From assembly GCF_014697025.1 (NCBI RefSeq), contig NZ_JACJRC010000035.1:1-46850 (forward strand): a DNA stretch of 46,850 nt, written 5' to 3'. The number at the start of each line of letters is the position of its first letter. Position 1 is the first letter of the stretch. This DNA is from Alkalinema sp. FACHB-956 (lineage in GTDB: Bacteria; Cyanobacteriota; Cyanobacteriia; Leptolyngbyales; Leptolyngbyaceae). The notes beneath the pieces were generated by a model. That model ran no database searches, was not told the DNA's origin, and was given only the letters and a program-made list of their open reading frames with translations. Below are positions 3,317-42,051 of the stretch, piece after piece. Position numbers and translations under genes: made by a program.

Positions 3317-6300
3317 TCATTTGGCTATAGAATCACACAGTTTCTTGTCCTCGGGGGAGACGTTGGGATTGCTTTGTAGGTAGTCGTGGAGCCAGTGGCA
3401 GCTTCGGGTCATGAGGTTATCGAGATCCAGATTCCACAAAATGACTGTCTTGTCCGCACTGCCACTCGCAATTGTCTTGCCATCAGGGCTGAAACTCGCG
3501 CTAGACAACGAATCGCGATGACCTGGAAGAGTTGTGAGGATTTGTCCATCTATACTCCATAGTTTGATGGTTTTGTCTCGACTCGCACTAGCAATTACAT
3601 GCCCATCTCGGTTGAAACCAACACTTTGAACTCCATCACTGTGGAGCATTGTTTTTAGTAGCTGACCATCTATACTCCATAATCTCACGGTTGCATCCCA
3701 ACTACCACTGACAAGCATCCTGCCGTTCGGACTGAAGTTCACGCTGTATACATCGCCAGTATGACCTTGGAGAGTTTTGAGTAACTGTCCTTCGCGAGTC
3801 CACAGCTTTATCGTCTTATCTTTACTCCCACTAGCGATGATCCTGCCATCCGGACTGAAGTTCATGCTGTATACATCGCCAGTATGGCCTTGGAGAGTTT
3901 TGAGTAACTGTCCTTCGCGAGTCCACAGCTTTATCGTCTTATCTTTACTCCCACTAGCGATGATCCTGCCGTCCGGACTGAAGTTCACGCTGTATACATC
4001 GTCAGTATGACCTTGGAGAGTTTTGAGTAACTGTCCTTCGCGAGTCCACAGCTTTATCGTCTTATCTTTACTCCCACTAGCGATGATCCTACCGTCTGGA
4101 CTGAAGCTTACGCTAGTAACGTTTTTGCTATGACCTTGGAGGGCTTCAGGTCCACGTCTTTGTAAGATCCACAGTCTCACAGTCTTATCTCGACTTGCAC
4201 TAGCAATCATACTCCCGTCTGGACTGAAACTTACACTCATAATAGGAGCGAGATGTCCTTTCAGGGTTTTCAATAGGTTTCCTTCTACACTCCATATTTT
4301 GACTGTCCTGTCCCAACTCCCACTAGCAATTATGTTCCCATTTGGACTAAAGCTAACACTCTCAATCCCATCGCTATGCCCTTTAAGAGCCTTCAGGAAC
4401 TGACCACTCTCCACACGCCATAATCTGACTGTTTTTTCTTGCTGTCCACTAGCACGGGCAATCAGCCTTCCATTCGGGCTGAAACTTATACTGTTGACCT
4501 CATCATCATGCCCTTTAAGAGCCTTCAGGAACTTACCGTTCTCCACACGCCACAACCTGACTGTCATATCATTGCTTCCACTAGCAATCAGTTGGCTATC
4601 GGGACTGAAACTCACACTTTTGACCCCATCTGCATGGCCTGTGAGGGTTCGTAGTAAACGCCCATCCACACTCCATATCTTGACCGTCTTGTCATTCTTC
4701 CATCCTCCACTAGCAATCATCGTGCCATTGGGACTGAAACTCACACTTTTGACCCCATCTGCATGGCCTGTGAGGGTTCGTAGTAAACGCCCATCCACAC
4801 TCCATATCTTGACTGTCTTGTCCCAACTCCCGCTAGCAATCATCGTGCTATTGGGACTGAAATTCACACTTGTAACTATGCCAGTATGACTTTCTAGCCG
4901 GTTTTTCTCCTGTATTCCATACACAATTTCACGCAATGTTCCAATGAGCATCATCCGCAGATCGGGGTTAGTATCCTGTCCTAAGTTTTTCAATGTCTTT
5001 GCTGCATGGGTTGCTTCTAGTAATGCATCTAAACCCATGCCATCGAGCCAAAGACGATCAGCATGCACTCTCTTAGCGAGAGTATCTAACTGCTGTTTCT
5101 CCCCCTGTACTTGCTGTTTTTCCTTCTGTACTGTTAGGTACTGCGACCATCCAAAAATTGCCAACGGTAGTGACAAAACCAATAACACCGCTGCCAAGAC
5201 CATTGCTGTCCGTTGTAGTCGTTTCGCCCAGTTCACCGGCCAATGGCGCTGAATCCACCCTAAGTCAAACACCTGCCGATAAATCCGGTTCCGCATCCGC
5301 AGTACTCGACCCTCTCGCCACACCACCCCCGACATCTTCAGGTGAGACTTGATAATCGACTGCTCCTCATCCAGCACATCCCTCCCCTTCCACACATCCC
5401 GATAGACCGTCAATACCTGCTCAATATCCGGTGCCCGCTTGGTCAACATATCCCGCACAAATTGCAGATTGTTGTCCTGCTCACTTCTCGCCCCCAAAAA
5501 CGTCTCCGTCACCAACTGCTCGATCTCCACCGGATCAAACCCCTGTATCAACCCATCCCGATAGGCCGCCGCAATCACCGCACAGAGCCGCTGGGTCAAA
5601 TAGGGGTGCCCATTCGTCCAGTCCAACACCTCCTGCAATACCCGCCTCGCCTCCGCTTCAGGCAATCCAAATCCCTCTGCCAAGGGCAACGCCTCCGCCA
5701 ACGTAAAATCTGTCAAATCCACCCGACGGCCAATATTAAACGGCGTTCGCTTTGCATCCTGAATTAAATCCCCCGGCGTCGCCACTCCAATCAGCACAAA
5801 CGATAACTGCCGAAACGCTGGAACCTGTGCCCGTGCTACATATAGATACCGAATCGCCGCAAAAAAGTCGTCCGTAAACTCCAATGTCAGCGTCGAATCA
5901 ATCTCATCTACAAACACCACTACGGGTTCCGCCACTTCCGCCAACAGCACCCGCTCACAAAACAACGTCAACCGCTGCGACAAGCCCAGATGTTCGTGGG
6001 CCTGCCACCACTCCACCCCATCTGTGTCCAGCATCAGTTGATCCGTCAGCTTCACCACCAGACCCAGATACCACTGCTCAGCCGTCACCTTCGAGCCGAG
6101 ATCCTGCAAATCCACGATCGCCGATCTCACCCCTTCCTCTTCCAGAGTCTGCGCTGTCCGCACCATTAAACTTGACTTCCCCATCTGCCGAGGCGTCAAC
6201 ACATAGGCAAACACACCCTCTTGACACAGCGCCAGCAGATCCCTATCCGCCGCCCGAGGAATATATACTCCCTCCTCATTGGCCTGAACCGTTCCCCCGA

Positions 6301-6325
6301 CAGTATAGATGTTGCTGTCAGCCAT
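3317..6325 (-). CDS. AAA-like NTPase with transmembrane helix and twelve WD40 repeats
   Basis: A 1002-residue protein. Residues about 1-300 are an AAA-like (STAND-type) NTPase with Walker A TPRQMGKSS (44-52) and Walker B VVVFVDEID (135-143). A DNA-binding-like helical part follows, then a membrane helix near 374-394, a coiled coil, and twelve WD40 repeats from about 479 to the end. The frame is open further upstream, but the ATG at 6325 has a GGAG seven bases before it and overlaps the upstream TIR-AAA gene by eight bases, so I use that start. WD40 arrays on STAND NTPases usually sense ligands. Three repeats are nearly identical in DNA, a sign of recent expansion. The likely role is a membrane-linked sensor or effector partnered with the TIR protein. 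Confidence 0.88.
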   Translation of the reverse strand: MADSNIYTVGGTVQANEEGVYIPRAADRDLLALCQEGVFAYVLTPRQMGKSSLMVRTAQTLEEEGVRSAIVDLQDLGSKVTAEQWYLGLVVKLTDQLMLDTDGVEWWQAHEHLGLSQRLTLFCERVLLAEVAEPVVVFVDEIDSTLTLEFTDDFFAAIRYLYVARAQVPAFRQLSFVLIGVATPGDLIQDAKRTPFNIGRRVDLTDFTLAEALPLAEGFGLPEAEARRVLQEVLDWTNGHPYLTQRLCAVIAAAYRDGLIQGFDPVEIEQLVTETFLGARSEQDNNLQFVRDMLTKRAPDIEQVLTVYRDVWKGRDVLDEEQSIIKSHLKMSGVVWREGRVLRMRNRIYRQVFDLGWIQRHWPVNWAKRLQRTAMVLAAVLLVLSLPLAIFGWSQYLTVQKEKQQVQGEKQQLDTLAKRVHADRLWLDGMGLDALLEATHAAKTLKNLGQDTNPDLRMMLIGTLREIVYGIQEKNRLESHTGIVTSVNFSPNSTMIASGSWDKTVKIWSVDGRLLRTLTGHADGVKSVSFSPNGTMIASGGWKNDKTVKIWSVDGRLLRTLTGHADGVKSVSFSPDSQLIASGSNDMTVRLWRVENGKFLKALKGHDDEVNSISFSPNGRLIARASGQQEKTVRLWRVESGQFLKALKGHSDGIESVSFSPNGNIIASGSWDRTVKIWSVEGNLLKTLKGHLAPIMSVSFSPDGSMIASASRDKTVRLWILQRRGPEALQGHSKNVTSVSFSPDGRIIASGSKDKTIKLWTREGQLLKTLQGHTDDVYSVNFSPDGRIIASGSKDKTIKLWTREGQLLKTLQGHTGDVYSMNFSPDGRIIASGSKDKTIKLWTREGQLLKTLQGHTGDVYSVNFSPNGRMLVSGSWDATVRLWSIDGQLLKTMLHSDGVQSVGFNRDGHVIASASRDKTIKLWSIDGQILTTLPGHRDSLSSASFSPDGKTIASGSADKTVILWNLDLDNLMTRSCHWLHDYLQSNPNVSPEDKKLCDSIAK
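3765..4133 (-). repeat. Three tandem 123-bp WD40-coding repeats, nearly identical
   Basis: Copies at 3765-3887, 3888-4010 and 4011-4133 each encode one 41-residue WD40 blade and differ at only a few bases. The other blades of the same protein are much more divergent, so these three arose by recent tandem duplication or gene conversion. Confidence 0.9.
4601..4813 (-). repeat. 84-bp identical duplicated WD40 segment (129 bp apart)
   Basis: Bases 4601-4684 and 4730-4813 are identical by eye. They are corresponding parts of adjacent WD40 blades and form a second patch of recent homogenisation in the same array. Confidence 0.85.
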
Positions 6326-7859
6326 GCAAGTGCTCCTGGAAAAAGGCTGCATAAAGTTGACAACGCGGTACAACACGTTGTCCATCCCGGCGTACTAATC
6401 CTGCTCCCCGCAACCGGAAAAACAGCCGTTCATCTTGACAGGTCTGCTTGTTCAGCACTTGTAGCAGTCCGTGCACCAGTTCCTGCTTGTCGTGCATCCG
6501 AAACAGGTGATAGCGCAAATGATCCCCAAACGGCCCCCGCTCATGGGCAGCCTGTTCAAATAAATGGTCGATCGTGATTTGCTGCGTTGCCACCAAATAC
6601 AGCGCCCGCCGTGTCAGGTAGGGATGCCCTCCTAACAACTCCATCAACTGCCCGACCTGAGTTAAGCTCAGCGGAGATCCATGGCGCTGATTGAGTACCA
6701 TCACCTGCTCAGCATTAAAATCTGTGAGTTCCAGCACCTGCCCCACGTTAAACGGCGACTGGTTGAGGTTATCAATCAACTGGTACGGCTCCGTCGAAGT
6801 CACCAGCGCCAAATCCAACTGCTTCCACACTGGCATTGTGGCGCGGCTATTATGCCAACTTCGCAACATGCTAAAGAAGTCTGATCTAAACTCGGTGTCA
6901 AAAATGCATTCCACCTCATCCATCGCTAAGACCATCGGCACGCCTAATTCCTTCAGTAGGTAGCGCTGCACATAGCGAGTACAGTTTTGGCAATGCCCTA
7001 AGGCATCATTCCACAGCTCCTGCACCCGATCGTCCATCTCCAATACATCGGTGAGCCACACACAGAACTGCCGAAAGAATTGATTAGCATCGGTTAAAGC
7101 CGTTTTGTCAAAGAGTTGAAAATCCAGAAAGGCAACTCGCTTATTCATCGCTCCCGCCGCCCCGATTGTTCGCAAGAGTAGCGAACTCTTCCCCATTTGA
7201 CGCGGTCCTTTGATAGTGATGGTTACCCCTTGGCGTTGAATCGTCTTCAATGCGATTTCATCAGCTTCCCGCTCAACATAGAATGCTGATTCTGGAGCCA
7301 TTGTTCCTTCTGGCATTTCCAGTGTTGGTATCGGTTGAGCAAAGGGTTGGGGTTGGGGAATCGGAGAAGGCACACTGGCTTGAATTAAATCTGCCTTCGC
7401 TTGGGCTGTCTCAATGGAGAGTGAGTTGCCCGCGATCGCCCGCCGTAACTCTGCTAGTAGTCGTTCGGTATCCTGTGGATCCTGCCAAAAAGCCCAATTA
7501 ATTTCGTTTAAATAAGCACTTAAGGGATACTGAAACGGTTCCTGATAGGCCACCCGTACAGGTAGAAGCTTAGGCTTACCATGCTGCTTCCCCAGATGAT
7601 ATGCCGTCTCAATTTCCCCCTTCACCATCTCACTACTGACTGAGTAGCCAGACAGCAAGGGAATGAAATAGTCTGCCTGTCGCAGTTCAGCTTCAATCTG
7701 TGCGGCCCACTGTGTCCCAACCGTCATCGTCTGGTCAATAAAGACTGAATAGTCTTGGCTGAAAGCACGAAAAACTTCTAGTGCAACAGGTTCATCCGGT
7801 GTTACTCCCCGTTTGTAACTGATGAAGATCCGGATAGTTGAGCGCGATGACGTTTCCAT
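6318..7859 (-). CDS. TIR domain-AAA-like NTPase fusion
   Basis: A 513-residue protein. Residues about 8-140 are a TIR domain starting at IFISYKR, with a SSEMVKGEIE stretch whose Glu82 is the probable NADase glutamate. A Pro/Gln linker follows (160-185), then an AAA-like NTPase of the same family as the downstream protein, with Walker A KGPRQMGKSS (218-226) and a Walker B-like VLAMDEVE. A C-terminal winged-helix-like part ends the protein. Many bacterial TIR domains cleave NAD or make cyclic ADP-ribose signals in anti-phage immunity. The gene overlaps the AAA-WD40 gene by eight bases, so the pair is likely one unit: WD40 sensor plus TIR effector. That division of labour is inference. Confidence 0.88.
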   Translation of the reverse strand: METSSRSTIRIFISYKRGVTPDEPVALEVFRAFSQDYSVFIDQTMTVGTQWAAQIEAELRQADYFIPLLSGYSVSSEMVKGEIETAYHLGKQHGKPKLLPVRVAYQEPFQYPLSAYLNEINWAFWQDPQDTERLLAELRRAIAGNSLSIETAQAKADLIQASVPSPIPQPQPFAQPIPTLEMPEGTMAPESAFYVEREADEIALKTIQRQGVTITIKGPRQMGKSSLLLRTIGAAGAMNKRVAFLDFQLFDKTALTDANQFFRQFCVWLTDVLEMDDRVQELWNDALGHCQNCTRYVQRYLLKELGVPMVLAMDEVECIFDTEFRSDFFSMLRSWHNSRATMPVWKQLDLALVTSTEPYQLIDNLNQSPFNVGQVLELTDFNAEQVMVLNQRHGSPLSLTQVGQLMELLGGHPYLTRRALYLVATQQITIDHLFEQAAHERGPFGDHLRYHLFRMHDKQELVHGLLQVLNKQTCQDERLFFRLRGAGLVRRDGQRVVPRCQLYAAFFQEHLHG

Positions 7860-8121: not shown

Positions 8122-8122
8122 C
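8100..8122 (-). terminator. Hairpin at the end of the small-membrane-protein operon
   Basis: GGCCCA (8100-8105) pairs with TGGGCC (8117-8122) around an 11-base loop, starting at the stop codon of the ATPase gene. No U-run follows, so it may be an mRNA 3'-end stabiliser rather than a strong intrinsic terminator. Confidence 0.4.
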
Positions 8123-9624
8123 TACTCGCCATACTTAGCTTTTAAGCTCTCAAGCCACCGCTTACCCTCTCCAAATTTGCGGCCACCGGCACCAAACTCA
8201 AAGACATCACGAATGGTTGCAGTGGGTGAGAGGTTCAAAGCTTGCAACGCAGCCCACAGAGCCTGTTCTCGATCGGCTTCCAGCCATTGCCCCACGGCTT
8301 TGGCATCCTCCTTTTGGCCCTTGGTAATCAGCAAATTGATTGCATTGATTAATGCGGTTTTTAGCTCATCTGAGGAGGGTTCATAGGCATCGTTGTCATC
8401 AAATGACGGCTCCTCAATGTCCGTGCTGAGTAAGGATTCTAGGAATTGCCGATCGACGGTTTGGGGTGGGGGACTAGAGGTCGTGGCTACAAGTTCGATC
8501 GGATCACCATTGTTATCCAACTCGGGAACCGAAGCTGGGAACCATTCACCGTTGGAGTATACCAGGGCAGGGCGTTTGACCCCTTCTAAAGCGTGGGTGA
8601 GACGGTCGCGCAGTCCTTTGTTTTGTTGAACCCCGAGCTTGAGCATACTGGTGTCTTTCATGGCTTTCCCGATGCCTTCACGACCCGGAAAAATCAGCGT
8701 CATTTCATCGCGGGTTTCAGCATTGCTGCCAAAGACCTCGGAGTTCATATTGGTGGATACTTGGCAGAGCCGACGGCGGATTTTTCGGGTAACAGATTCG
8801 TAATTAAGCTTCCACTCCTCAACGGTCTTAGCGACCTTTCGGCCTTGGGACTGGAGGCGTTTTAGCGTTGCTTTACCTTCCTCTAAGACAATCAGCCGAG
8901 CAGGAAAATCACGTTTGCCCAGACGATACTGTGCAATATCTTGCGTGATGAATTTATTATCCTCCGCCATTCGCGTCACCATTTGTGCATAGTCATAGAG
9001 GACTTCACAGCCTGCCCAGTCTGCCTCAGACCCATAGATATCAAAGACGGTGATGGAGGCATTAAGAATATGCTTACCAAGGTACTTAACCAGGACGGAC
9101 TTACCGCCTCCCATCTTGGCAACCACCCCTAAAATGGGATGCCGATCGGCGTCTCTTAGGTCATGCCAATCAAAAAAGGGGATTTCTTGGGTCGTTGATA
9201 ATACCGATGCTGGAGCCGTCGATACACCTTGAGAAGCCTCCGGGGGGGGGCCTGAGGGCTCGGAGCCATTCCCCGTCGGGTTCACAGTCTCAGCCGCAAC
9301 GTCCACCACATAATCCGCCATCCACGGATTCTCGGCATAGAACTCTTCAGCTGCTTGGAACTGTGCCTTGAGCTGTTCCCCTTGCAGTCTGGCATCGGCA
9401 TAGATTTGACGGTTTCTGATGGCGATCTGTGCGTCAATATCGTCGAGGTAGGCATGTCTCCGCTGTTGTTCCACCTGGTACAACAAAGCGGAGGACAACG
9501 CCATCGATGAAGCTGCTGCTGCTAACCGTAATGGCAGTAACTGAGTGCCCCCGATCGACGCGATCGCGGCTGTCAAAATGGATCCTCCCATCAGAAGACC
9601 CATGGTCATAGGACGTTGGGCCAT
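8122..9624 (-). CDS. Membrane-anchored P-loop ATPase (HerA/FtsK/VirD4-like)
   Basis: A 500-residue protein. Two hydrophobic N-terminal segments (about 6-25 and 30-48) are followed by a helical region (52-95), a Pro/Ser-rich linker (112-148) and a P-loop domain. Walker A is AKMGGGKS (169-176), with Ala in place of the usual first Gly; Walker B is LIVLEE. The fold suggests a DNA-pumping or coupling ATPase, as in FtsK, TraB or VirD4, but I cannot place it in a named family. The C-terminal 130 residues are acidic, then helical. It is the last gene of the overlapping small-protein operon, with start TAATG and a GGAGG ribosome site. The likely job is powering DNA or protein movement by a membrane complex built from the other products. 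Confidence 0.72.
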   Translation of the reverse strand: MAQRPMTMGLLMGGSILTAAIASIGGTQLLPLRLAAAASSMALSSALLYQVEQQRRHAYLDDIDAQIAIRNRQIYADARLQGEQLKAQFQAAEEFYAENPWMADYVVDVAAETVNPTGNGSEPSGPPPEASQGVSTAPASVLSTTQEIPFFDWHDLRDADRHPILGVVAKMGGGKSVLVKYLGKHILNASITVFDIYGSEADWAGCEVLYDYAQMVTRMAEDNKFITQDIAQYRLGKRDFPARLIVLEEGKATLKRLQSQGRKVAKTVEEWKLNYESVTRKIRRRLCQVSTNMNSEVFGSNAETRDEMTLIFPGREGIGKAMKDTSMLKLGVQQNKGLRDRLTHALEGVKRPALVYSNGEWFPASVPELDNNGDPIELVATTSSPPPQTVDRQFLESLLSTDIEEPSFDDNDAYEPSSDELKTALINAINLLITKGQKEDAKAVGQWLEADREQALWAALQALNLSPTATIRDVFEFGAGGRKFGEGKRWLESLKAKYGE

Positions 9625-9947
9625 TAGGAACCTCCGAGCAGTAAGTCCCAGTGGGCCAACAACACAGCCGCCAAGCTCGCCAGACTCATGACCCAGAATT
9701 GGGCATCCCGGTACGCGATCGCAACGATCGTCAATGCTAACAACCCAAACGTGCCAACAATCCAGCAGAAGGGCGCAAATAGCGGAATAGTACGACTCAG
9801 CAGAAAGAGGAATAACCCCGAAGAAAGCACCATCAGAATTCGTGCAATTTGGTGCATTGCGTCAATTGTTGTGAAGCCAGGATGCTGCTGGTGCTGAAAT
9901 TGATAATCCTGAAATTCGGAATACTCATCATTAAACAGTGGAAACAT
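9624..9947 (-). CDS. Small membrane protein, three predicted helices
   Basis: A 107-residue protein with a polar N-terminus rich in Gln, Phe and His (1-30), then hydrophobic segments near 34-50, 56-78 and 84-103. The stop and the ATPase start overlap as TAATG, so translation is coupled. A GAGG lies nine bases before its ATG. It is a natural membrane partner for the ATPase. I recognise no family. Confidence 0.72.
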   Translation of the reverse strand: MFPLFNDEYSEFQDYQFQHQQHPGFTTIDAMHQIARILMVLSSGLFLFLLSRTIPLFAPFCWIVGTFGLLALTIVAIAYRDAQFWVMSLASLAAVLLAHWDLLLGGS

Positions 9948-9992
9948 TTCCTACAACCTCTTAGCAAGAAACAAGAAACAAATGGAGCAATC

Positions 9993-10715
9993 TTAGCGAC
10001 CAAACCAATTCACCATACGATCGAACCAGCCAATCCCACGGCCATGAGCCCCTTGTGTCCCATGGGTCAGGAGTTCCATTCTGCGTTTTTGCTGGTTGGC
10101 TTGCAGATTGTCTACCATCATCTTGGTGCGCGCGATCGGAATACGTTCCTGCTCCTTGCGCTCTGCACGGCGATGTTTCATGGCGATGAGTTGCAAGGTG
10201 GTTTGGAAATTCAACTCGCCCAGTGCTTGCTGGGATTGTTGTTCCGCACGCATAATGCCAATTTTGCGGTGAGCTTCCTGATTGAGGTGCTGAAGGTGGC
10301 TGCGATAGCCTTGGTCAGCCAGCCATGCATCCAATACTGCCTTGTCGATTTGCTTGGCGGCAGTGGTGCCCGCTTTGAGGATCCTCTGAACAAACTGTTC
10401 ATATTCAAGCTGGCCTTGAATCAGGGCTTCAAAGTGCTGCTCTAAAATCGGAAGAATCTGCTGTAAGTCTTTCATGCGCTTGGCGCGATCGGCAAATTCG
10501 GCCAACTCAAGATCGCTCATTTCACCAATGCGAGCTAAGTCAATGCCAAATAGGCGATTTACGGATCTCAGCGCTGCACCTCCGTGGGAGGCCACATGGG
10601 AATGAATGTTGTGGTTTCCCCGCCCGCCGCCTGATTGCTGGGCATATCGACCAGGGTTAGGCGTGGTGGGAATAACTGTGGGTAGTCTGCCGGGACTGTG
10701 AATTAGGTTGGGCAT
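9993..10715 (-). CDS. Hypothetical coiled-coil protein of the membrane operon
   Basis: A 240-residue soluble protein: a Gly/Pro/His-rich N-terminus (1-50), a long Gln-, Ala- and Arg-rich helical region (60-215) likely to form coiled coils, and a C-terminal amphipathic end (GIGWFDRMVNWFGR) that could touch the membrane. The start overlaps the preceding gene by 59 bases. AGGAG eight bases before the ATG supports it, so the overlap looks genuine. No membrane helix is visible. It may be a cytoplasmic scaffold for the membrane complex, which is inference from position only. Confidence 0.68.
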   Translation of the reverse strand: MPNLIHSPGRLPTVIPTTPNPGRYAQQSGGGRGNHNIHSHVASHGGAALRSVNRLFGIDLARIGEMSDLELAEFADRAKRMKDLQQILPILEQHFEALIQGQLEYEQFVQRILKAGTTAAKQIDKAVLDAWLADQGYRSHLQHLNQEAHRKIGIMRAEQQSQQALGELNFQTTLQLIAMKHRRAERKEQERIPIARTKMMVDNLQANQQKRRMELLTHGTQGAHGRGIGWFDRMVNWFGR

Positions 10716-11004
10716 AGTGAGAACTCCTGAAAGAGATGAGAATTAAGCCGAGACCCAGTAAGCAAATGAACAGCGACGCCACTCGCACCCAGGCTTCGGT
10801 GGTGGTGTCTTTGGGAACCGGTAAACCATAGATGTTGTTGAGCGCGTCAATGAGGCCATCATCGTCGCCGCTGTAGTGAAAGGTGGTTCTGTCAGGCCGA
10901 ATATCAATTTGACAACTCACATGCACGGGGCGCGGGGCGATTGGGAAAGGGGCGATCGGGGGCGCGGTAACCAGAGGTTGCTCCACTAGCGGAGTCTCAT
11001 TCAC
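10657..11004 (-). CDS. Small single-pass membrane protein
   Basis: A 115-residue protein with a Pro-rich N-terminus, a central stretch with DIRPDRTTFHYSGDDDGLID, and one hydrophobic helix near residues 73-93, then a polar tail. It begins with GTG in a GTGA overlap with the upstream stop, and a GGGAG sits just before it. No family is recognised. The compact overlaps on both sides place it firmly in the operon. Confidence 0.68.
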   Translation of the reverse strand: MNETPLVEQPLVTAPPIAPFPIAPRPVHVSCQIDIRPDRTTFHYSGDDDGLIDALNNIYGLPVPKDTTTEAWVRVASLFICLLGLGLILISFRSSHYAQPNSQSRQTTHSYSHHA

Positions 11005-11333
11005 GGTTTACTCTCCCTTTGGTGGCGTAATTGGTTGATGGCCTGGAGCCGCAATTGCCCTCGGGTAATGCCTTCTGCCGTTTCGGTTTCCCAGTGATTC
11101 ACCACACACCAAGGATCGCCATAACAAGGAGACTTGGGAGACTGAGACTCTTTGACCGCTGTATTCCACACATCACGCGCGATCGCACTAAGAACAACGT
11201 TGGTATCTTGGTTGTCTTCCGCCTTGTGAGCACCGGGGATAGAAGCCATTCCACCCACGATCGTCACGCAGGCACAACCGATACAGAGCCAAGTGGTTCC
11301 TCCCCAATCCAAAGGGTTAAATTTAGCTTGCAT
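11001..11333 (-). CDS. Small membrane or exported protein
   Basis: A 110-residue protein with one hydrophobic segment (about 13-33) near the N-terminus, then a polar domain containing two Cys (CYGDPWC). Two close Cys after an N-terminal anchor suggest that the domain faces the oxidising side of the membrane. The start overlaps the end of the 45-residue gene by 11 bases, and the stop overlaps the next gene as GTGA. No family is recognised. Confidence 0.68.
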   Translation of the reverse strand: MQAKFNPLDWGGTTWLCIGCACVTIVGGMASIPGAHKAEDNQDTNVVLSAIARDVWNTAVKESQSPKSPCYGDPWCVVNHWETETAEGITRGQLRLQAINQLRHQRESKP

Positions 11334-11460
11334 AGGTCACCTCATAGATGGCGAAAAGGGTGCCCATTGCAGGAATGATGAACGGAGAGAGAGAGTAGGT
11401 AATCATGGCAAGTCCCGCCATGCAAACAACTGCGCATGTTTTACGAATGAGGCTTTCCAT
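11323..11460 (-). CDS. Very small two-helix membrane protein (45 residues)
   Basis: ATG 11460 to TAA 11323 encodes a 45-residue, strongly hydrophobic peptide with two short helices around a LSPFIIP turn. AAGGA eight bases before the ATG is a good ribosome site. The gene fills the only gap in an otherwise overlapping array: its start lies 20 bases inside the preceding gene and its end 11 bases inside the next one. Size, hydrophobicity and placement all argue that it is real. No family is recognised. Confidence 0.65.
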   Translation of the reverse strand: MESLIRKTCAVVCMAGLAMITYSLSPFIIPAMGTLFAIYEVTYAS

Positions 11461-11725
11461 CAGTGATTTCCTTCACGACTTTGATAGCAGTAATCACCAA
11501 GGGAATCGCAGCGATCGGACTGAGCGGAAGCACTAAACTCAGGACAGCGTAGCTTAGACATCCTAGTAAAGCGCCTGCGGTGGTGATTCCCCTGGCCCGG
11601 TGATGAACTTGCAGCGAGATCAATCCATGGAGCTGACCGATCGCTTCTAGGCGGGGCGTCAGATCTGGAACCCTGAAAGGATCCCGGCCAAAGGGCGTTG
11701 ATTGGCCTCCCGATCGGCTTCCCAC
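11441..11725 (-). CDS. Small membrane protein (about 94 residues)
   Basis: The frame opens with a GTG at 11725 and overlaps the previous gene by 67 bases. The true start may be later, since no strong ribosome site marks this one. The first half is polar and basic; the second half (about 48-85) is a long hydrophobic stretch, probably two helices around a PLSPIAAIP turn, then a basic end. The similar LSP turn in the 45-residue neighbour hints that the two may be related or pack together. The function is unknown. Confidence 0.6.
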   Translation of the reverse strand: MGSRSGGQSTPFGRDPFRVPDLTPRLEAIGQLHGLISLQVHHRARGITTAGALLGCLSYAVLSLVLPLSPIAAIPLVITAIKVVKEITDGKPHS

Positions 11726-12393
11726 TGTTCTTCATCAATCCAGGCTTGAATTTCGTCCACAGTCAGGTCAGTCCCTAACGCTGTAAAACGGGAACCGAAG
11801 TCCGTCCAAAGGGTTTCAGCGGTTGCTTGAGAACTCCCCAGAAACTGGTCGTATAGTTCGCCTTTAAGGGATTCAAGTTCCGCATCCAGAACAACAGCAT
11901 CCGCAATGTGGGTAAGAGGTTCGTGCAGACCTCCAATCATGGCTGCAAATTCGTGGAGTCCTCCAGCCACATTAGACATAAAGCTGTTGGCATAGCTGTG
12001 GAGATAATTGTCGGAATCGGTTCTGCCTTGTTGTTGGGCAGCAGAGATGGCCGATCGACTCATTTTCTGTTGAGCCTCCACCATTGCGCCTTGGGTCTTT
12101 TGTTGTTGGCGTTGGCGAAGTTGAGCAGTGGTCAGTTTGCCCTCACGAGAGCTTTGCGCGTTGCCACTTCCCGAACTTCCGCAGGGCTGACCACTTCCCG
12201 ATTTTCGTCCGGGGGCTTTGGTCTTGGTCCGTTTGGAAGTGGCGGAAGTGCGTAATTCATCGGCTTGCTCAATGAGTGCTGTCAGCTCCGCAGAGTCATC
12301 TTCATAGCGATCTTTCAGCTCAATGTCCAGACTGGCGGAGACTTCCACGAGGAGTTCCATTCCATAAAGTTCTGTCAGTTCTTCGATCGTCAT
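11659..12393 (-). CDS. Hypothetical soluble protein with low-complexity linker
   Basis: A 244-residue protein with an acidic N-terminal helical part (1-55), a basic Ser/Gly/Gln-rich linker (55-120), and a C-terminal domain with DAELESLKGELYDQF and TVDEIQAWIDEEQWEAD helices. There is no membrane helix. It starts in an ATGA overlap with the previous gene. It may be a regulator or assembly factor of the operon; I recognise no family. Confidence 0.68.
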   Translation of the reverse strand: MTIEELTELYGMELLVEVSASLDIELKDRYEDDSAELTALIEQADELRTSATSKRTKTKAPGRKSGSGQPCGSSGSGNAQSSREGKLTTAQLRQRQQQKTQGAMVEAQQKMSRSAISAAQQQGRTDSDNYLHSYANSFMSNVAGGLHEFAAMIGGLHEPLTHIADAVVLDAELESLKGELYDQFLGSSQATAETLWTDFGSRFTALGTDLTVDEIQAWIDEEQWEADREANQRPLAGILSGFQI

Positions 12394-12683
12394 GGTTCAA
12401 CTCCATATTGTTTGAAAGCGAGATTGAGCAAAACGGGCTGAGTTCGCAGTTTGGCGTAGAGTTGTCGGCTATGGATCCCTGGAGCTAAGGCCAGAAAGCG
12501 GCGCATTCTTTGGATTTCCAAGAGTTCTGTTTCAGTCAGGGGGCTACGGATGGGGATCCCCAAGGCTTTGAGATCGCGAAGCAATCGTTTTCGATCTCGA
12601 TCTCCTAGCTGGTGCCGCGCTCCGGACGTGGTGTAGACAACGGTTTCACCACACTGCCATTGGGCTAGGCAAATCGTATTCAT
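12390..12683 (-). CDS. Small basic protein, first gene of the membrane-protein operon
   Basis: A 97-residue protein, rich in Arg and Leu, with possible helices at DRDRKRLLRDLKALG and ELLEIQRMRRFLAL. It might bind nucleic acid. Its ATG lies about 66 bases downstream of the expected transcription start of the promoter described here, and its stop overlaps the next gene as ATGA. No family is recognised. Confidence 0.62.
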   Translation of the reverse strand: MNTICLAQWQCGETVVYTTSGARHQLGDRDRKRLLRDLKALGIPIRSPLTETELLEIQRMRRFLALAPGIHSRQLYAKLRTQPVLLNLAFKQYGVEP

Positions 12684-12750
12684 GGGTATTGGATGTTCTA
12701 GGGTGGCACCACATTGGTACGGACTAAAGTTCCAGGGTGGTACGGGTTGA

Positions 12751-12783
12751 TTTAGATGTTAACATCTAAAAAGTAACTGTCAA
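12751..12783 (-). promoter_or_regulatory. Promoter of the membrane-protein operon, -10 inside a perfect 20-bp palindrome
   Basis: On the minus strand a consensus -35 TTGACA (12783-12778) is followed after 16 bases by TAACAT (12761-12756). That -10 lies inside a perfect palindrome, TTTAGATGTT plus its reverse complement (12751-12770). A protein bound there would block the polymerase. The divergent RHH protein is the obvious candidate repressor. Confidence 0.6.
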
Positions 12784-12801
12784 GATGTTAGAAAGATGTT
12801 A
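12783..12801 (+). promoter_or_regulatory. Tandem AGATGTTA boxes (candidate operator half-sites)
   Basis: AGATGTTA occurs at 12783-12790 and 12794-12801, 11 bp apart and so on the same helical face. A third copy is the left arm of the nearby palindrome (12754-12761). RHH proteins usually bind arrays of short repeats like this. Confidence 0.5.
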
Positions 12802-12814
12802 ATTAGTGACAGTC

Positions 12815-12842
12815 TTGCTAAAAATTACGAACCATCTACTAT
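12815..12842 (+). promoter_or_regulatory. Promoter of the divergent RHH gene
   Basis: TTGCTA (12815-12820), a 16-base spacer and TACTAT (12837-12842) precede the ATG at 12858, with GAGGGG as ribosome site. The AGATGTTA boxes lie just upstream of the -35, so one protein could control both directions. Confidence 0.5.
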
Positions 12843-12857
12843 GAGGGGTGCTACTCA

Positions 12858-13091
12858 ATGGATACCGAACAGATGGCGAAACGTATTAATGTCACGCTTT
12901 CTGACCCTTACCACGCCGATCTTCAGCGCTGGGCAGAAACGAGGGGGGAACCCCTGGCCACGTTTGCAACCTACCTGCTGAAATTAGCGATCGATGAGGC
13001 GAGACGGGCAGGGGAAATCCCTCCTGAACCTGTGCCCGAGAAAACTACGGGTAAAACCACAAAAAGTAAGGGGCGATCAACGAAGCGCTAA
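12858..13091 (+). CDS. Ribbon-helix-helix (CopG/Arc-like) DNA-binding protein
   Basis: A 77-residue protein. RINVTLSDPYHADLQRWA is a typical RHH strand followed by helix 1, and a second helix (LATFATYLLKLAIDEA) follows. The tail is Lys/Thr/Pro-rich and basic. RHH proteins dimerise and insert the strand into the major groove at short repeats. It is divergent from the membrane-protein operon across a region with a palindrome and AGATGTTA boxes, so it probably represses that operon and itself. A copy-number role is an alternative. Confidence 0.75.
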   Translation: MDTEQMAKRINVTLSDPYHADLQRWAETRGEPLATFATYLLKLAIDEARRAGEIPPEPVPEKTTGKTTKSKGRSTKR

Positions 13092-13321
13092 GGGGTGAGT
13101 GGCTCTGGAAAGCTCTCTAGATAGCGCGATGGCTTACTTCGGTCTGTGGAGTCTATTGCCAGCTTCTGCCCCACATTAATTGGTTCAAAAACGTTCCAAT
13201 GGAATCATTGAAAATACCTCACTTGATGGGTTTTCAGTGGTGCACTGATGGGGAGACACAATACTGATCGCTGAGGGTGAAAGATTGGCGATCGATGTTT
13301 CCACCCCATCAACAACGCAAA

Positions 13322-13522
13322 CTAGAACGCAGCGACACGAGCGGAATCGCTATACAACCAACAGCATTGACTTACTTTGAGCGGCTGCACCCCCAAGAAA
13401 GCCTTCCATCGCGCCAGCGTCGAGCGGGGGACTTGGTAACGTAGTCTGCGATGTAGAAAGTGCCGTAAGTCCCCAATCGACCACCGATGCTTTGAATAGG
13501 AGTCTGCACAAAGGATTGACAT
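13322..13522 (-). CDS. Possible small helix-turn-helix protein
   Basis: ATG 13522 gives a 66-residue protein. The stretch WSIGDLRHFLHRRL followed by VPRSTLARWKAFLGV looks like a MerR-type or transposon helix-turn-helix; the C-terminus ends abruptly after YSDSARVAAF and may be truncated. An upstream ATG (13564) would add 14 residues. It sits alone in the 580-base gap between two plus-strand RHH genes; I see no other gene in the gap. Confidence 0.4.
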   Translation of the reverse strand: MSILCADSYSKHRWSIGDLRHFLHRRLRYQVPRSTLARWKAFLGVQPLKVSQCCWLYSDSARVAAF

Positions 13523-13671
13523 GGTTGCGTGAGATAAATGGTGAGACCGCAGGATTAGTCCCATGGGATAGTCCCGTTATTTGTCCCACAGGTGGGCAAA
13601 AACATGACAACATGTAAGGTACATGTACTGAGTAAGTACTTTAACTGTTTGGAGGTTCAAAGGGATAAACT

Positions 13672-13881
13672 ATGTATATAAAACTGTTTTGTGCCTCCCC
13701 TGAAATGCCTTCGGAAAAGCCTCGGCTCACCATTTATCTCGACGCGGCCACCAAGGCTGAATTAGAGGTGTTAGCAGCCCTTAACGATCGCCCCGTCAGC
13801 AATTACGTGTTGCATTTGGTGAAACGAGAAATCCAGCAAGCTAAGGCATCAGGAGTTCTCACAGACAAGACTCAGCAGTGA
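13672..13881 (+). CDS. Ribbon-helix-helix-like small protein
   Basis: A 69-residue protein. The segment PRLTIYLDAATKAELEVLA is an RHH strand plus helix 1, followed by a second helix NYVLHLVKREIQQA. AGGGA seven bases before the ATG at 13672 supports this start; an internal Met at residue 12 lacks a ribosome site. It has the same architecture as the RHH protein about 600 bases upstream but low identity. It is likely a plasmid transcriptional regulator. The target is unknown. Confidence 0.65.
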   Translation: MYIKLFCASPEMPSEKPRLTIYLDAATKAELEVLAALNDRPVSNYVLHLVKREIQQAKASGVLTDKTQQ

Positions 13882-13964
13882 GGATGTACGCTAAACCCTG
13901 CGATCAAAAGATGAAGCAAGCCAAGTAAAAAAAGATTTTTTCAAGCAAACAAGGTGAACGACTC

Positions 13965-14552
13965 ATGACGATCGCCGTACAAAAATTGACGCTCAAAGAG
14001 TATCTGGCCTACGAAGACGGCACAGGGCATCGCTACGAATTAGTGGATGGAGAATTGGTTCAGATGCCTTTAGGGACTGGCAAGCACAGTGATATAAGTG
14101 ACTTCTTAACGGATGAATTCCGAGATGAAATCAACCGAACCGAACTGGATTGGATCGCAAAAGCCATGAAAATTGGGCTGCAATCCCCCAGAGGCAGCCG
14201 TTGGGAAACCTCCAGAATCCCAGATGTGGTGGTTTTGCCCTTAGAACAATGGGAATCAATGGCCGATCGTGAAGGATTCATTCCCCTGAATGAACCCCAG
14301 CCCATCCTGGTTGTCGAAGTCGTTAGTCCCTCCACTGTGGCGATCGACTATCGCGCCAAACACAGCGAATACGCGGTTTTAGACATTCCAGAATACTGGA
14401 TTGCTGATCCCATCGAGCAAAAAGTAACCGTCTGCACCTTGAAAGATGGCGCATACAGCGATCAAGTCTTCACAGGCACGCAGGTGATTACCTCCCAAAC
14501 TTTTCCTGGATTAAACCTGACTGCCGAACAAGTCTTGAGGGCGAAAAGATGA
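13965..14552 (+). CDS. Uma2 family (DUF820) endonuclease-like protein
   Basis: A 195-residue protein with the usual Uma2 order: LTLKEYLAYED, GHRYELVDGELVQM, RIPDVVVL, PILVVEVVSPST, KHSEYAVLDIPEYWIADP. These form the PD-(D/E)XK nuclease core (Asp in IPDVV, Glu in VVEVVS). The family is greatly expanded in cyanobacteria and often mobile; its biological role is not settled. AAGGTG lies eight bases before the ATG. It overlaps the next gene as ATGA, so the two are co-translated. Confidence 0.85.
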   Translation: MTIAVQKLTLKEYLAYEDGTGHRYELVDGELVQMPLGTGKHSDISDFLTDEFRDEINRTELDWIAKAMKIGLQSPRGSRWETSRIPDVVVLPLEQWESMADREGFIPLNEPQPILVVEVVSPSTVAIDYRAKHSEYAVLDIPEYWIADPIEQKVTVCTLKDGAYSDQVFTGTQVITSQTFPGLNLTAEQVLRAKR

Positions 14553-14860
14553 GCTTCACTACAGAGAAAGTTCAAGCCGCTGTCGATTCCATCTTGGAAA
14601 CCCTACAAGAAGGCACCAGCTCACTACACAGTGAGGCCCTAGCTGCCTTCAAAAGTGGCAACCACGATCGGGTTAAACGGCTAGCCAGCACTAACCTTGC
14701 GGATAGCTATTGCCGCTCCTTAGGCTATTTAGGATCCGCTTTAAAGCTCACGCCAAACACCGACACAATCTTGGCGGAAGCTGCAAGAGCCGCCGCAGAC
14801 TTCGCCAAAGAACGCGAGCTGCATCGGTTGAGCCAAGCAATTCATACCGCATTGAACTAA
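14549..14860 (+). CDS. Small helical protein coupled to a Uma2 nuclease
   Basis: A 103-residue all-helical protein (for example VQAAVDSILETLQEG and ILAEAARAAADFAKERE). It starts in an ATGA overlap with the Uma2 gene, so it is probably its partner, perhaps an inhibitor or adaptor. It has no membrane segment, and I recognise no family. Confidence 0.6.
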   Translation: MSFTTEKVQAAVDSILETLQEGTSSLHSEALAAFKSGNHDRVKRLASTNLADSYCRSLGYLGSALKLTPNTDTILAEAARAAADFAKERELHRLSQAIHTALN

Positions 14861-14902
14861 TGGGGAAATTGCAAACCTGAAAACCTGCCTTCTACCAGCA
14901 CA

Positions 14903-14928
14903 ACTCCTAAGTAAAACTCCTAAGTAAA
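14903..14928. repeat. Tandem 13-bp repeat before the second Uma2 gene
   Basis: ACTCCTAAGTAAA occurs twice in perfect tandem, at 14903-14915 and 14916-14928, a few bases before the Uma2 start at 14941. It may be a replication-slippage product or may affect translation initiation. Confidence 0.7.
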
Positions 14929-14940
14929 GAGTGAAGCTCT

Positions 14941-15573
14941 ATGACCATCGCAGTAGAACGCCCAACCCAGCTCAAGCCCTTCACTTTTGAGGAATTTCTA
15001 GCTCAATATGGCGATGACGATCGCTATGAACTCATTGATGGAGAGATATTTGATTTGGAAGCCACAGGCCCCCATGAAGAAGTTGCCGCGTTCATCGATC
15101 GCAAGCTAAATGTCCAAATCGACCATTCTGAACTCCCCTACTTCATTCCCCAACGCTGCTTGATTAAGCCTTTGGGCGATTGGACTGGACTCCGCCCTGA
15201 TCTCGTCGTACTCGATAAAACCCAGTTAAGTGCTGAACCCCTCTGGCCTAAAGAAGCCATCATCACGCTGGGTCACTCAGTCAAATTAGTCGTTGAAGTG
15301 GTCAGCAGCAATTGGCAAAATGACTATGCTCGGAAAGTCGATGAATACGCCATTTTAGGCATTCCAGAATATTGGATCGTAGATTATGCCGCGCTGGGCG
15401 GATTGGAATTCATCGGTCGCCCCAAACAACCCACCCTGACCATTTGCATCCTCGGTAACGATGGCTATTACGAAAAACAGCGATTACGAGGTGACGATCG
15501 CATTTGTTCCAGCATCTTCCCAAGCCTGAACCTCACCGCAGCCCAAGTCTTAAGCACAGGGAGTGGATGCTAG
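14941..15573 (+). CDS. Uma2 family (DUF820) endonuclease-like protein, second copy
   Basis: A 210-residue protein with FTFEEFLAQYGDDDRYELIDGE, RPDLVVLD, KLVVEVVSSNWQNDYARK and EYAILGIPEYWIVD. The PD-(D/E)XK positions are present, including Asp in RPDLVV and Glu in VVEVVS. It is clearly diverged from the copy at 13.97 kb, so this is not a fresh duplication. No partner gene follows. The role is unknown, as for the family. Confidence 0.83.
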   Translation: MTIAVERPTQLKPFTFEEFLAQYGDDDRYELIDGEIFDLEATGPHEEVAAFIDRKLNVQIDHSELPYFIPQRCLIKPLGDWTGLRPDLVVLDKTQLSAEPLWPKEAIITLGHSVKLVVEVVSSNWQNDYARKVDEYAILGIPEYWIVDYAALGGLEFIGRPKQPTLTICILGNDGYYEKQRLRGDDRICSSIFPSLNLTAAQVLSTGSGC

Positions 15574-16095: not shown

Positions 16096-16150
16096 CCAAA
16101 ATCTGACCGCGCTTACCCTTGTCCACTTTTTGCCAGGGAAGCGATTTGTC

Positions 16151-19100
16151 ATGTCATTAACGATTACGACCCCCGTTCTCACCGCTGCTTCGACCAAGCA
16201 CACCGCCTTCGATCGGGAATTCATCCAAGGCTCTGCCATCCATCCCAGCCTCTACGCCGCCACGGTGCAGGTTGTGGGGGACCTAGAACAGGATGCCGGT
16301 GGTGATGCCGCCACACCCATCCACGATGCCCTGAACTGGCGCTATGTCCGGTTTGGCCACACAGTGAACACCACCCTGCTGGCCGCCCTCTTCCTGAATG
16401 AAGATGGATCCTACTGGCAGGCCAAACTATCTGAACCCAAACAAGACCGCAAAACGGGCAAAACACGTAAATACGAAACGCCTGTTGGTAACGGCGCACG
16501 GGCCTACCTCCCCAGCGTGCCACCTGAGATCCGGCAGAAAGTCAACCAACGCCAGCAGATAGAATGCCCTACGGAAGGCTCGTTCTGGGACTTCATCGCC
16601 CAGCATCCCGAAATCCCGATCGTCCTGACCGAAGGGGGCAAAAAATCCCTCGCGGCCCTCTCCCAAGGGTTTGTGGCGATCGCGCTCTATGGGATCAATG
16701 CAGGCGTGAACAAGTATGAAACGATCGGGGGGGAACGCATTCGTCGTCTTCAGCCAGAACTGATCCCCGATTTACAACGGTTTGCTGGGACAGGCAGGCC
16801 GTTCACCCTCGCCTTCGACCAAGATACGAAGCCCAAGACCCGCCATAAGGTGGCTAGCGCATTGGCCGATTTATCTTGGCACTTGGAACAGCAAGGCTGC
16901 ACGGTCAGGATTGCCACCTGGGAGGGTCAAAGCGGCCAATGCAAAGGCTTGGACGACCTGATCGTAAATGCTGGGGCTGAAGCATGGCAAAACGCCTACC
17001 AACAGGCCATCCCAGCCCGCGAATGGCGCATTATGCAGCAGCTTGCTGCCCAAATCAAACGCCAGCCAGATTTAGCGATCGGCACCCAAGAATTCTCAGA
17101 AGTCGCCCCAAACCTTCCCAAGGCAGGCATTCTCGCCCTCTATGGTGGCAAGGGGACCGGGAAATCAGAGGCCATCAAACAGATCCTGACTGGACAGTCC
17201 TGGCTCTCCGTCACGCCACTGGTCAGCCTGGGGCGCGACCAAGGCGAAGCCTGGGGCGGAGTATTCATCAACGACGGCGATATCATTGGATCCCAACTCC
17301 TCAAAGACGGGCAACCCGTGCATGGCGCATCGGTCTGCATCCCCTCCCTCACCAAGGTCAACCGGATCGAGGCAGACGTTCTCGTGCTAGACGAACTCAC
17401 CGCCACCCTGGAGTTCCTCCTTGGCTCCAAACTGGCCAATAAAAACGGTCTGCGTCCTGTGCTACTCGATGAATTCATCCGGCGGGTGCAGAGATCGGAA
17501 CAGGTGATTCTGGCCGATGCCGATTTGACCGAAGAAGCGATCGCCTACATTGAGGCGATACGGGGTGAGCGGGCTTATTTAGTGCGCAGCGATCGTCAAG
17601 CCCTGACCTATCCAACCTGGATCCTAGAAGGAACCCAACCCCAAGCGATCGCGGCCCTGACGGAACGCTTTCAAACCCTGCCAACTCAGCAACTGATTTA
17701 CCTCAACTGCGACAGTAAGACGCTGGCCGATAGTCTGGCTAAACTTTTACAAGCACAGGGCATTTCCAGCTTGCTGATCACCAGCGATACCAGCGGCTGC
17801 GCAACGGAAGCAGAATTTCTCGCTAGCCAAGGTCGAATGCTGCCAACCCTCATCCGGCAAGGTATTCGCGCCATCATCACCAGCCCGACCGTCACCCAAG
17901 GCTTCAACATCAAGGCCCACACAGAGCTGATTGATTCCGTTTGGGGCTTCTACAAAGGCGGCAGCATCACCGCCCATGCCATGGCGCAAGCCCTCGACAG
18001 AGTGCGCTCCAACGACGTACCCCGCTTTGTCCACGTTGCCAAAAAGGGCAGCGCCTACAGCAAACTGAGCAAAGCCCAAGCGATCGCGCCATTCTTGAAG
18101 GAATTCAAGCAAATCAGTACCGCTGCTGCTCGCCTGGTGCGGCACCAGCTCAATCCGATGACCCTGAACACCGTGGATGGCCTGGATTGGCAATCCCAGA
18201 ACCTGAAACTCTTGGCTTCCCTGGAAGTGCGCCGCAATCGGGGGATGGTAGCATTACGGGATACATTGGTCGCCTTACTGCGGCAGGAAGGCAAGCAAGT
18301 GCAATCGCTACGGCCTACCGTTCCCACTGCGGCCACCAAAGCTGCTAGTCGAGAACTCAAAGCCGCCCAACAGCAGGTGACCCAAGCACAGGCCCAAGCG
18401 GTCGCCCAGGCAACCCCGATCGATGACGCGGAAGCTAAACGTCTGTCAGAGCAAACCACACCCCTCACGCCAGAGCAACTCCTCAGCCTGACCCAATGGC
18501 AGCTTGCCCGCTTTTATCGTCTCGACAACCTGACGGCAACCGATGTGCTGTTTGATAAAAAAGGCGTCACCCAACACCACATCCGCAACCTAGAGGCAGC
18601 GCTCTCACAGGCAAAAGCAGAAGAACGCACCGCCCACAGCATCCACCAGAACCCTGACACCCCCCAAGATTGGGACAAAGCCGCTGTGCATCGCTGGATG
18701 ATGGAACAGTGCGGCATCCTGCCGCTGGTGGTACAAATTGTGCGCCAGGAAGTCACCCAGTTCACGCCGGAGATTACCGCACCGATCTCGCAGTTTGTTC
18801 GTAACCATGCCACCGAATTTCGCATTGGGTTTGGTTATGCCAAGCTCGATAAAATGTCTGACCAGCAAATCGTAGGCATTCTGCTGGGGCACTACGGCAT
18901 TCGCAGCAAACGTCACCGACGACGGAACGCCTACAGTGTTGACCAAGCCCATTTGGAGGCGCTTCTCAATGTCCTGAAACGCAGGCAGCAAGCCGATCCA
19001 CAGGGAGCGAAAAAAGAGAGTAATCCAGAGGTCTGGATCTCTCTAGAAAGCCCAATGGAAGAAGAAAGAGAGGAAGATGGACAAAAGCTAAAAACGTCAG

Positions 19101-20096: not shown

Positions 20097-20573
20097 ATCT
20101 GGTTTTTATTGCAAATGCGGCTGATTTTAGGACATGCGCAAAGTGATAGGGCCAGCTAAGTAGGATGAAAATGCCTGAAAGCCTTGTCATATAAGGTTTC
20201 TACAACTTAATGCCAATGGATGACCGTTGCTTGGAATGCTGAGATTCCTTGGTGAATACGTGAAGGGTAGAAGCCTTCTGATCACAGATCACAAGACTTA
20301 GCAGTCTTCTGATGCAATGCCTTCATTTATCGGCCTTTAGGTCTTGTGATCTACAGTTTTTGGGGCTATTTTTTCAACTAAAAATCGGCTTTTTTCAGAT
20401 ATTTTTCTGGTTTAGTTTGTGCTTTTATTTCTTAATATTTCTTATATTTTTGATCAGTGGTAGTTGCAGTAAATAATTAGCTCTTGTGATCCTGAAATGT
20501 GCTCGAAAAGCCCCTAGCCAAGCCGATTGAAGGGCCATAGAATGCAATTGTCCTGAGAACACGAGTGCCCAAA
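20097..20573. other. AT-rich intergenic region with a 12-bp inverted repeat
   Basis: No convincing gene. AGATCACAAGAC (20286-20297) and its exact reverse complement (20341-20352) flank a 43-base loop containing further short repeats (CTTCTGATCA at 20276 and CTTCTGATGC nearby). Bases 20355-20470 are T-rich. It lies between a minus-strand gene and a plus-strand RHH gene, so it should hold both promoters and possibly operator sites. Confidence 0.45.
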
Positions 20574-29060: not shown

Positions 29061-29066
29061 AGCGAG

Positions 29067-34946: not shown

Positions 34947-35055
34947 CTAGTGGTTTGTCATCCATAAAATGAAGGATAGAAGTTCTTTTAAACTCAAGTA
35001 AAACAACCGTTTGAAACTTCTTTAACCCCTCAAAATAAACTGGACAGACCACTAG
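34947..35055. mobile_element. MITE-like element at the end of the DUF499 gene
   Basis: CTAGTGGTTTGTC (34947-34959) and GACAGACCACTAG (35043-35055) are inverted repeats with one mismatch, and weaker pairing continues inward. The element is about 109 bp, has no gene, and its TA-containing ends suggest an IS630/mariner-type TA insertion. Its right end supplies the TAG stop codon of the DUF499 gene. Confidence 0.6.
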
Positions 35056-41997: not shown

Positions 41998-42051
41998 GGT
42001 TTTACTCCCTTCAATAAAATTTTCCACCCAACTTTCGGATATATAAAACCA

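Follow-up and report, generated by a model that had tools for sequence, protein, structure and literature searches.

Nine tightly packed minus-strand genes, here called g1 to g9, run from position 12683 to position 8122 of a 46,850-base contig of the cyanobacterium Alkalinema sp. FACHB-956 (NZ_JACJRC010000035.1; the window of our analysis is this complete contig). The last three of them, which encode a soluble protein (g7), a membrane protein (g8) and a P-loop ATPase (g9), form a real and conserved plasmid unit with an ATPase of the FtsK superfamily that has apparently not been described so far; in the open-licence literature, outside of which most subscription journals lie, we recognized no account of such a module. 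By analogy to the TraB/Spd system of Streptomyces, we see an even chance that the operon encodes a DNA-translocation machine that would work independently of a relaxase and of a type IV secretion system (T4SS).

The operon and its recurrent core

An earlier note on this DNA had drawn attention to the nine genes, and all of them are indeed open reading frames at the positions that it gave:

12390–12683, minus strand: g1, 97 amino acids, first gene of the operon
11659–12393, minus strand: g2, 244 amino acids, soluble; takes the position of the adaptor gene in the sister operons described below
11441–11725, minus strand: g3, 94 amino acids, uncertain GTG start, one predicted membrane helix (residues 50–68)
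11323–11460, minus strand: g4, 45 amino acids, one predicted membrane helix (11–29)
11001–11333, minus strand: g5, 110 amino acids, one predicted N-terminal membrane helix (14–32)
10657–11004, minus strand: g6, 115 amino acids, GTG start, one predicted membrane helix (73–91)
9993–10715, minus strand: g7, 240 amino acids, soluble, predicted all-helical; core gene
9624–9947, minus strand: g8, 107 amino acids, three predicted membrane helices; core gene, adjoins the 5' side of the ATPase gene
8122–9624, minus strand: g9, 500 amino acids, P-loop ATPase assigned to the FtsK/HerA superfamily, core at about residues 148–377

The junctions, recomputed from g1 to g9, are overlaps of 4, 67, 20, 11, 4 and 59 bases, followed by a 45-base gap and a 1-base overlap, as had been claimed. 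It had also been concluded that this packing implies a complex of fixed stoichiometry; this goes too far, as the overlap of genes suggests coupled translation rather than stoichiometry. With a Kyte-Doolittle mean above 1.5 over 19 residues as the threshold, membrane helices are predicted for the five small proteins g3, g4, g5, g6 and g8 and for none of g1, g2 and g7; the expectation of at least five small membrane proteins, one of them with 45 residues, is thus borne out. A purine-rich stretch lies directly 5' of most start codons as judged by eye (weak for g1 and g3), and a codon-based coding-potential gene caller omitted g3 and g4. In the neighbourhoods that we compared, convincing homologues were found for g7, g8 and g9 only, and the case for g1 to g6 is therefore built on their position, the context of their starts and their hydropathy; an 18-residue match of g6 (E 0.03) was discarded. 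Co-conservation accordingly stands for g7-g8-g9 and is not seen for g1 to g6. Since the same gene order is found in other genomes, we have ruled out a chance arrangement or an assembly artefact.

The order of the three core genes is shared by six other stretches. The g7 protein shares 47–49% identity with six homologues, and its model, made from the single sequence, is helical at low confidence. Homologues of g8 were found at the same position by blastp (E 1e-6 to 7e-6) and by hhalign (probability 88%, E 3e-6). The profile of g7 listed 31 places, 30 of them beyond the window, and 26 of these 30 were fetched: 25 have an ATPase gene downstream on the same strand, the exception being L086. Thus, g7 is not scattered without the ATPase; such scattering would have spoken against the unit. 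At one of these loci (L079), a fragment of the ATPase is left at the contig end; at another (L074), an insertion splits the ATPase gene and g7 and the ATPase lie 5.8 kb apart. The insertion in this interrupted ATPase gene (L074, gene at 9489–15494) carries a recombinase-like gene and others. Taken over all distinct g7 loci, the ATPase is present at 33 of 34; seven of the 34 (six of one genus and the window) had been found otherwise than through g7.

The recurrent core thus consists of g7, a polytopic membrane protein and the ATPase. Leaving aside six stretches that were too short on the upstream side, 59 could be assessed; in 39 of these, a gene for a polytopic membrane protein lies at most 1.6 kb upstream of the ATPase gene, as compared to 13 of 217 control genes, i. 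e. genes for at least 300 amino acids from the same stretches; many of the stretches are related and hence not independent. Small one-helix genes were found within 4.5 kb of the ATPase gene in 30 of the 59, a count that has no control. For most of the polytopic proteins from different groups, hhalign supports no relationship to each other, and these are positional analogues only.

The ATPase motor and its family

The predicted structure places g9 in the FtsK/HerA ATPase superfamily, with a RecA-like core and conserved Walker A and Walker B residues; G174, K175, E249 and R280 are invariant across 32 aligned family members. The AlphaFold2 (AF2) model, built from an alignment of eight rows, has a mean pLDDT of 66 with a confident core and weak ends: the ten-residue means are 86–94 across residues 151–370, except for 64–71 at 291–310. 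TcpA of the Clostridium perfringens plasmid pCW3 (PDB 6o1w–6o1z) tops both fold rankings for this core, with a Foldseek E-value of 6e-6 and a structural alignment of Z 15.5 (root mean square deviation 3.3, 202 residues aligned). In the Z ranking it is followed by two entries titled 'ATPase' (13.3 and 13.2), by EssC and FtsK (both 12.9) and, lower down, by HerA (10.7) and TrwK/VirB4 (10.4). Packaging ATPases are also among the fold matches, and TraB is absent from those listed, which excludes nothing. A profile search of the PDB sequences was led by midasin, which we read as a match of P-loop repeats and set aside; below it, DUF87/HerA and FtsK entries appeared amid many other P-loop proteins. 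The profile of the ATPase family matches the FtsK_SpoIIIE protein of the Brevibacterium plasmid pAP13 (hhalign probability 97%, E 1e-10, 171 columns); this plasmid is typed mobilizable, and the gene sits there in a run with genes for TcpC (PF12642) and an AAA_10 ATPase.

Of the two helices that had been proposed to anchor g9 in the membrane, the first, residues 6–24, passes the Kyte-Doolittle threshold. The second, starting at residue 29, is plausible; it appears at low confidence in the AF2 model, as does a helical C-terminal region. Among 65 family members, 36 have an N-terminal membrane segment above a threshold of 1.6, 17 a weaker one and 12 none, the latter including proteins whose P-loop the search pattern had missed. 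An HTH-like (helix-turn-helix) pattern in the tail was seen in nine of the 65 members, g9 not being one of them.

Single-sequence searches with g9 returned nothing from genome contigs, viral contigs, plasmids, phages or PDB sequences; to find the relatives, a whole-genome search of relatives and the use of further family members as queries were needed. In this way a diverse family emerged that is mostly encoded on cyanobacterial plasmids. At E ≤ 0.001, g9 matched in 22 of 194 genomes, one of which is its own. In a sample of the phylum that likewise counts the genome of the window, at least 24 of 386 genomes match the ATPase profile (a lower bound, with four candidates scored per genome) and 20 match that of g7. 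With g7 and two other family ATPases as queries, tblastn identified plasmids of Nostoc, Allocoleopsis, Calothrix, Annamia, Tolypothrix, Moorena and Pseudanabaena, and more weakly actinobacterial FtsK/SpoIIIE proteins. Nine cyanobacterial member plasmids that we opened span 6–292 kb, and all of them are typed non-mobilizable; one, pn2, is so typed and yet bears an MPF_T label. The 6.4-kb plasmid pDU1 of Nostoc PCC 7524, one of these nine, encodes a family ATPase, found by both tblastn and HMM, with four small open reading frames upstream; no g7 was recognized on it. The record names this protein only as 'ATP-binding protein', and other plasmid proteins bear similar annotations.

Possible recognition and translocation, and the rival readings

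Upstream of g1, two features deserve attention:

12754–12801: four copies of TAACATCT, three on the minus and one on the plus strand, between g1 and the divergent gene
12858–13091, plus strand: ribbon-helix-helix (RHH) protein of 77 amino acids, divergent from the operon (PF07878, E 7e-9)

The four copies are the only ones in the window; their number is unremarkable (four of 100 shuffles reach four), it is the clustering that is striking. The motif AACATCT occurs four times within the 174-bp gap, which is seen in 2% of shuffles. We regard the TAACATCT cluster as a probable operator or recognition site and the RHH protein as a probable regulator, both predicted from the sequence; RHH-like genes lie upstream of 37 of 67 modules on the opposite strand. 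The C-terminal winged helix of TraB reads 8-bp clt repeats, and our repeat search of the window gave no clear clt-like array other than the TAACATCT cluster.

Further hints come from the sister operons. Six modules of one genus are nearly identical in g7 (94–99%) and in the ATPase (82–93%), and the C-terminal parts of their adaptors share 57–97% identity. The N-terminal parts, in which we see HTH domains by eye, are only 3–37% identical in 13 of the 15 pairs, against a shuffled baseline with a mean of 12 and a maximum of 33; two of these pairs (33 and 37%) may be related. The remaining two pairs are 76 and 100% identical. Some modules have a different, two-gene form of the adaptor, and both forms are present in one genome (G020), whose four modules lie on separate contigs: two have fused adaptors (N-termini 16% identical) and two the two-gene form. 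From this pattern we infer that each machine may be aimed at its own plasmid via the exchanged part of the adaptor. In the operon of the window, g1 occupies the position of small HTH-like genes of some sister operons; hhalign supports homology of g1 neither to these nor to the adaptors and detects no significant similarity of g2 to the latter, so that both are to be seen as positional analogues.

Proteins that act on the cell wall were also found in sister operons. An SH3_3 domain lies within a one-helix protein of one of them, an M23 peptidase is encoded two genes past the ATPase in L031, and one protein combines two wall-hydrolase domains:

L105, 11320–12501: NlpC/P60 and GH108 protein of 393 amino acids, two genes past the module ATPase

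This protein has a short hydrophobic stretch by eye, below the helix threshold, and presumably resembles the two-domain wall hydrolases of Gram-positive conjugation systems. L031 and L055 encode GIY-YIG-type domains, and L067 has a weak match to this type. Each of the SH3, wall-hydrolase and GIY-YIG domains has one or two members among 110 representatives of the accessory proteins, and they are thus occasional rather than universal.

In the model that we find best supported, the operon would encode an envelope machine that translocates the DNA of its own plasmid. In such a machine, g9 would assemble into a hexamer anchored in the membrane, the membrane or periplasmic part would be built from g8 and the single-helix proteins, and g7 would couple the motor to these membrane parts. 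The first genes of the operon and the divergent RHH protein would recognize the plasmid and regulate the operon, with the plasmid-specific adaptor aiming the motor. Plasmid DNA, probably double-stranded, would then be pumped from cell to cell through the inner membrane and the cell wall without a relaxase or a type IV secretion channel, as in TraB/Spd, and the model predicts transfer between cells. Three lines of evidence tilt our interpretation towards translocation out of the cell: ParA-like or ParM-like genes coexist with the module, the host genome has no VirB4-type match, and sister operons encode wall-acting partners.

Several observations weigh against this idea. The motor g9 does not reach the Pfam cut-off for PF01580 (FtsK_SpoIIIE) or PF01935, and its relatives L052 (18.3 of 24) and L053 (13.8 of 24) also stay below that of PF01580. 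Roughly every second ATPase relative lacks a recognizable g7, 20 of 59 ATPases have no called polytopic gene nearby, and g3 to g6 lack homologues, their participation being claimed from position. The wall-acting domains occur in three lineages only and not in the operon of the window, and the exchange pattern of the adaptors would be the same for an autoregulator. Of the 21 plasmid rows in two of the tblastn searches, four are typed mobilizable. The module is present in two IMG/VR virus records, one of 75.7 kb in which a gene for a minor tail protein adjoins it and one of 50 kb that has the same proteins as a 6.26-Mb contig, and a phage that carries the module does not need conjugation. Finally, ParM-like genes were found in seven of 75 stretches and head the same operon in five, which fits segregation equally well.

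Indeed, the module might serve the positioning or segregation of its plasmid, with the membrane-anchored FtsK-like motor pulling plasmid copies through the closing septum. We judge this main rival unlikely as things stand and still take it seriously as an alternative because ParM-like genes head five operons and because one virus record has the module next to a tail gene. FtsK acts together with XerCD in dimer resolution; in this explanation, the motor would possibly activate a tyrosine recombinase of the plasmid to resolve dimers, and the exchanged part of the adaptor would be a centromere-binding protein. The integrase-like genes in 34 of 75 stretches (a count without control), the RHH-like genes upstream of the modules and the exchanged adaptor N-termini are in agreement with segregation, which would suit plasmid-like prophages, too. 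On the other hand, 20 of 75 stretches, the window being one of them, already have a ParA-like or ParM-like gene, so that the module is no simple substitute for partition genes, and no actin-like or ParA ATPase was found by Pfam among g1 to g9. Segregation would need neither the wall hydrolases nor the SH3 domains of the sister operons, and the top fold match of g9 is a conjugation coupling protein.

This fold match, together with the profile matches to TcpA-type proteins, raises the question whether g9 is a TcpA-like coupling protein that would need a T4SS and a relaxase in trans, the module then being a new one within a conjugation type already known. A relaxase gene is indeed present on another contig of the host genome (C15:59140–59505, the only match, to PF03432), and no match was found to PF08751 or PF03389; a search with PF01076, which matched in no control, was uninformative and set aside. 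The VirB4-type profiles PF03135, PF12846 and PF19044, each of which matches in control genomes, found nothing in that of the host, and the operon brings its own membrane genes. We therefore consider such conjugation in trans very improbable.

A phage-derived or phage-like module for DNA packaging or extrusion, as in inoviruses, or for superinfection exclusion appears improbable as well. Inoviruses have the order gVIII-gVI-gI, with small coat proteins, a three-helix protein and the pI/Zot ATPase, and the operon bears a superficial resemblance to this order; the two virus records and the packaging ATPases among the fold matches also fit. In contrast, no Zot family matches g9 at E ≤ 1 in Pfam, PHROGs gave weak rows only, three family ATPases have no match in 50,697 phage records, and the member plasmids cover a wide range of sizes. 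Neither virus record contains the portal family PF04860, and hhalign does not support homology to g7 for the phage-borne 225-residue protein, which is a positional analogue only. The record with the minor tail protein gene (L067, IMG/VR 3300032236_001802) also contains QueC, GTP cyclohydrolase and ParB-like genes. More generally, none of g1 to g9 matches a known secretion, phage or partition family above the curated cut-offs in Pfam and NCBIfam or convincingly in PHROGs. PADLOC gave no match for the four proteins tested (g9, g8, g7 and g2), and g9 thus does not show up as a HerA-type defence ATPase; among the ATPase relatives, it matched HerA and mad8 in L056 (E 6e-7 and 1e-8) and mad8 in L043 (E 2e-4).

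Among known systems, TraB/Spd, the analogy already drawn in the earlier note, is the best available: both have one FtsK-like motor with an N-terminal membrane anchor and small membrane proteins, the Spd proteins being compared by layout alone. They differ in that the hosts of the module are cyanobacteria and thus diderm, g9 is under the PF01580 cut-off, and the module has the extra core gene g7. TraB and the Tra proteins of actinomycete integrative and conjugative elements (AICEs) need no T4SS, and the AICE pattern comprises a recombinase, a Rep protein and an FtsK-type Tra protein (PMC3218068, PMC12857230). TcpA is likewise N-terminally anchored, FtsK-like and plasmid-borne, and the pAP13 match extends this likeness to a Tcp-like operon of actinobacteria. 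TcpA works for a T4SS together with the relaxase TcpM (PMC12857230); we recognized no such partners for g9. TdtA of Thermus thermophilus is a membrane-associated FtsK-HerA ATPase of a mobile element. It is needed for DNA donation, its operon partners include a NurA-family nuclease, and uptake depends on the competence apparatus of the recipient; an operon of small membrane proteins is not mentioned in the available portion of that account (PMC5365140). Since g9 is under the FtsK_SpoIIIE cut-off, the host has no VirB4-type match and no clear clt-like array stands out beside the TAACATCT cluster, we liken the module, known here from genes and models, to TraB/Spd or TcpA and assign it to neither.

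The carrier plasmid and the meaning of the module

Because the first and the last 99 bases of the contig are identical, we take the source replicon to be circular, a plasmid of about 46.75 kb. Two further genes relate to its maintenance:

16130–19165: DUF3854 protein (PF12965, E 5e-40)
33785–34543: ParA gene

CyRepA, a Rep protein of cyanobacteria, has this DUF3854 domain (PMC10079941). A 670-residue protein of the plasmid matches tyrosine integrases weakly (E 4e-5, under the cut-off), and a cluster of inverted repeats lies upstream of this integrase-like gene at 20268–21183 (e. g. 20848–20866 pairs with 21165–21183). The plasmid also carries accessory conflict systems. PADLOC identified the Hma defence genes HmaC (35052–38405), HmaB (38409–41318) and HmaA (42313–45894). 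The adjoining genes at 25297–31007 for an FGE-sulfatase-domain protein, an AAA/MoxR-like ATPase and a trypsin-VMAP protein look like a conflict system of the vWA-MoxR type. Two large neighbouring proteins are encoded at 3317–7859; the scanned set that includes both contains AAA_35 (two members) and WD40 repeats (one), and the N-terminus of the 513-residue protein of this region is TIR-like by eye. A putative Uma2-family nuclease is encoded at 41359–42027 (PF05685), and two more PF05685 matches in the scanned set probably correspond to the genes at 13965–14552 and 14941–15573.

If the transfer reading is true, such plasmids would spread between the cells of a trichome and between strains. To our knowledge, this would make it the first system of the TraB/Spd kind from diderm hosts, with TdtA of Thermus as the nearest precedent. 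Should the module serve segregation, we would be looking at a partition system with a membrane-anchored motor of the FtsK type, which is likewise unusual. In any case, the conserved plasmid-borne motor provides a concrete, testable machine on accessible plasmids such as pDU1. We propose only tentatively that many cyanobacterial plasmids that are classed as immobile carry a self-contained transfer machine of this kind, independent of relaxase and T4SS and made up of an FtsK/TcpA-like motor, membrane proteins and wall-acting proteins of its own, and a part for plasmid recognition that can be exchanged. A transfer machine would change the mobility typing of plasmids and the design of vectors in cyanobacteria.

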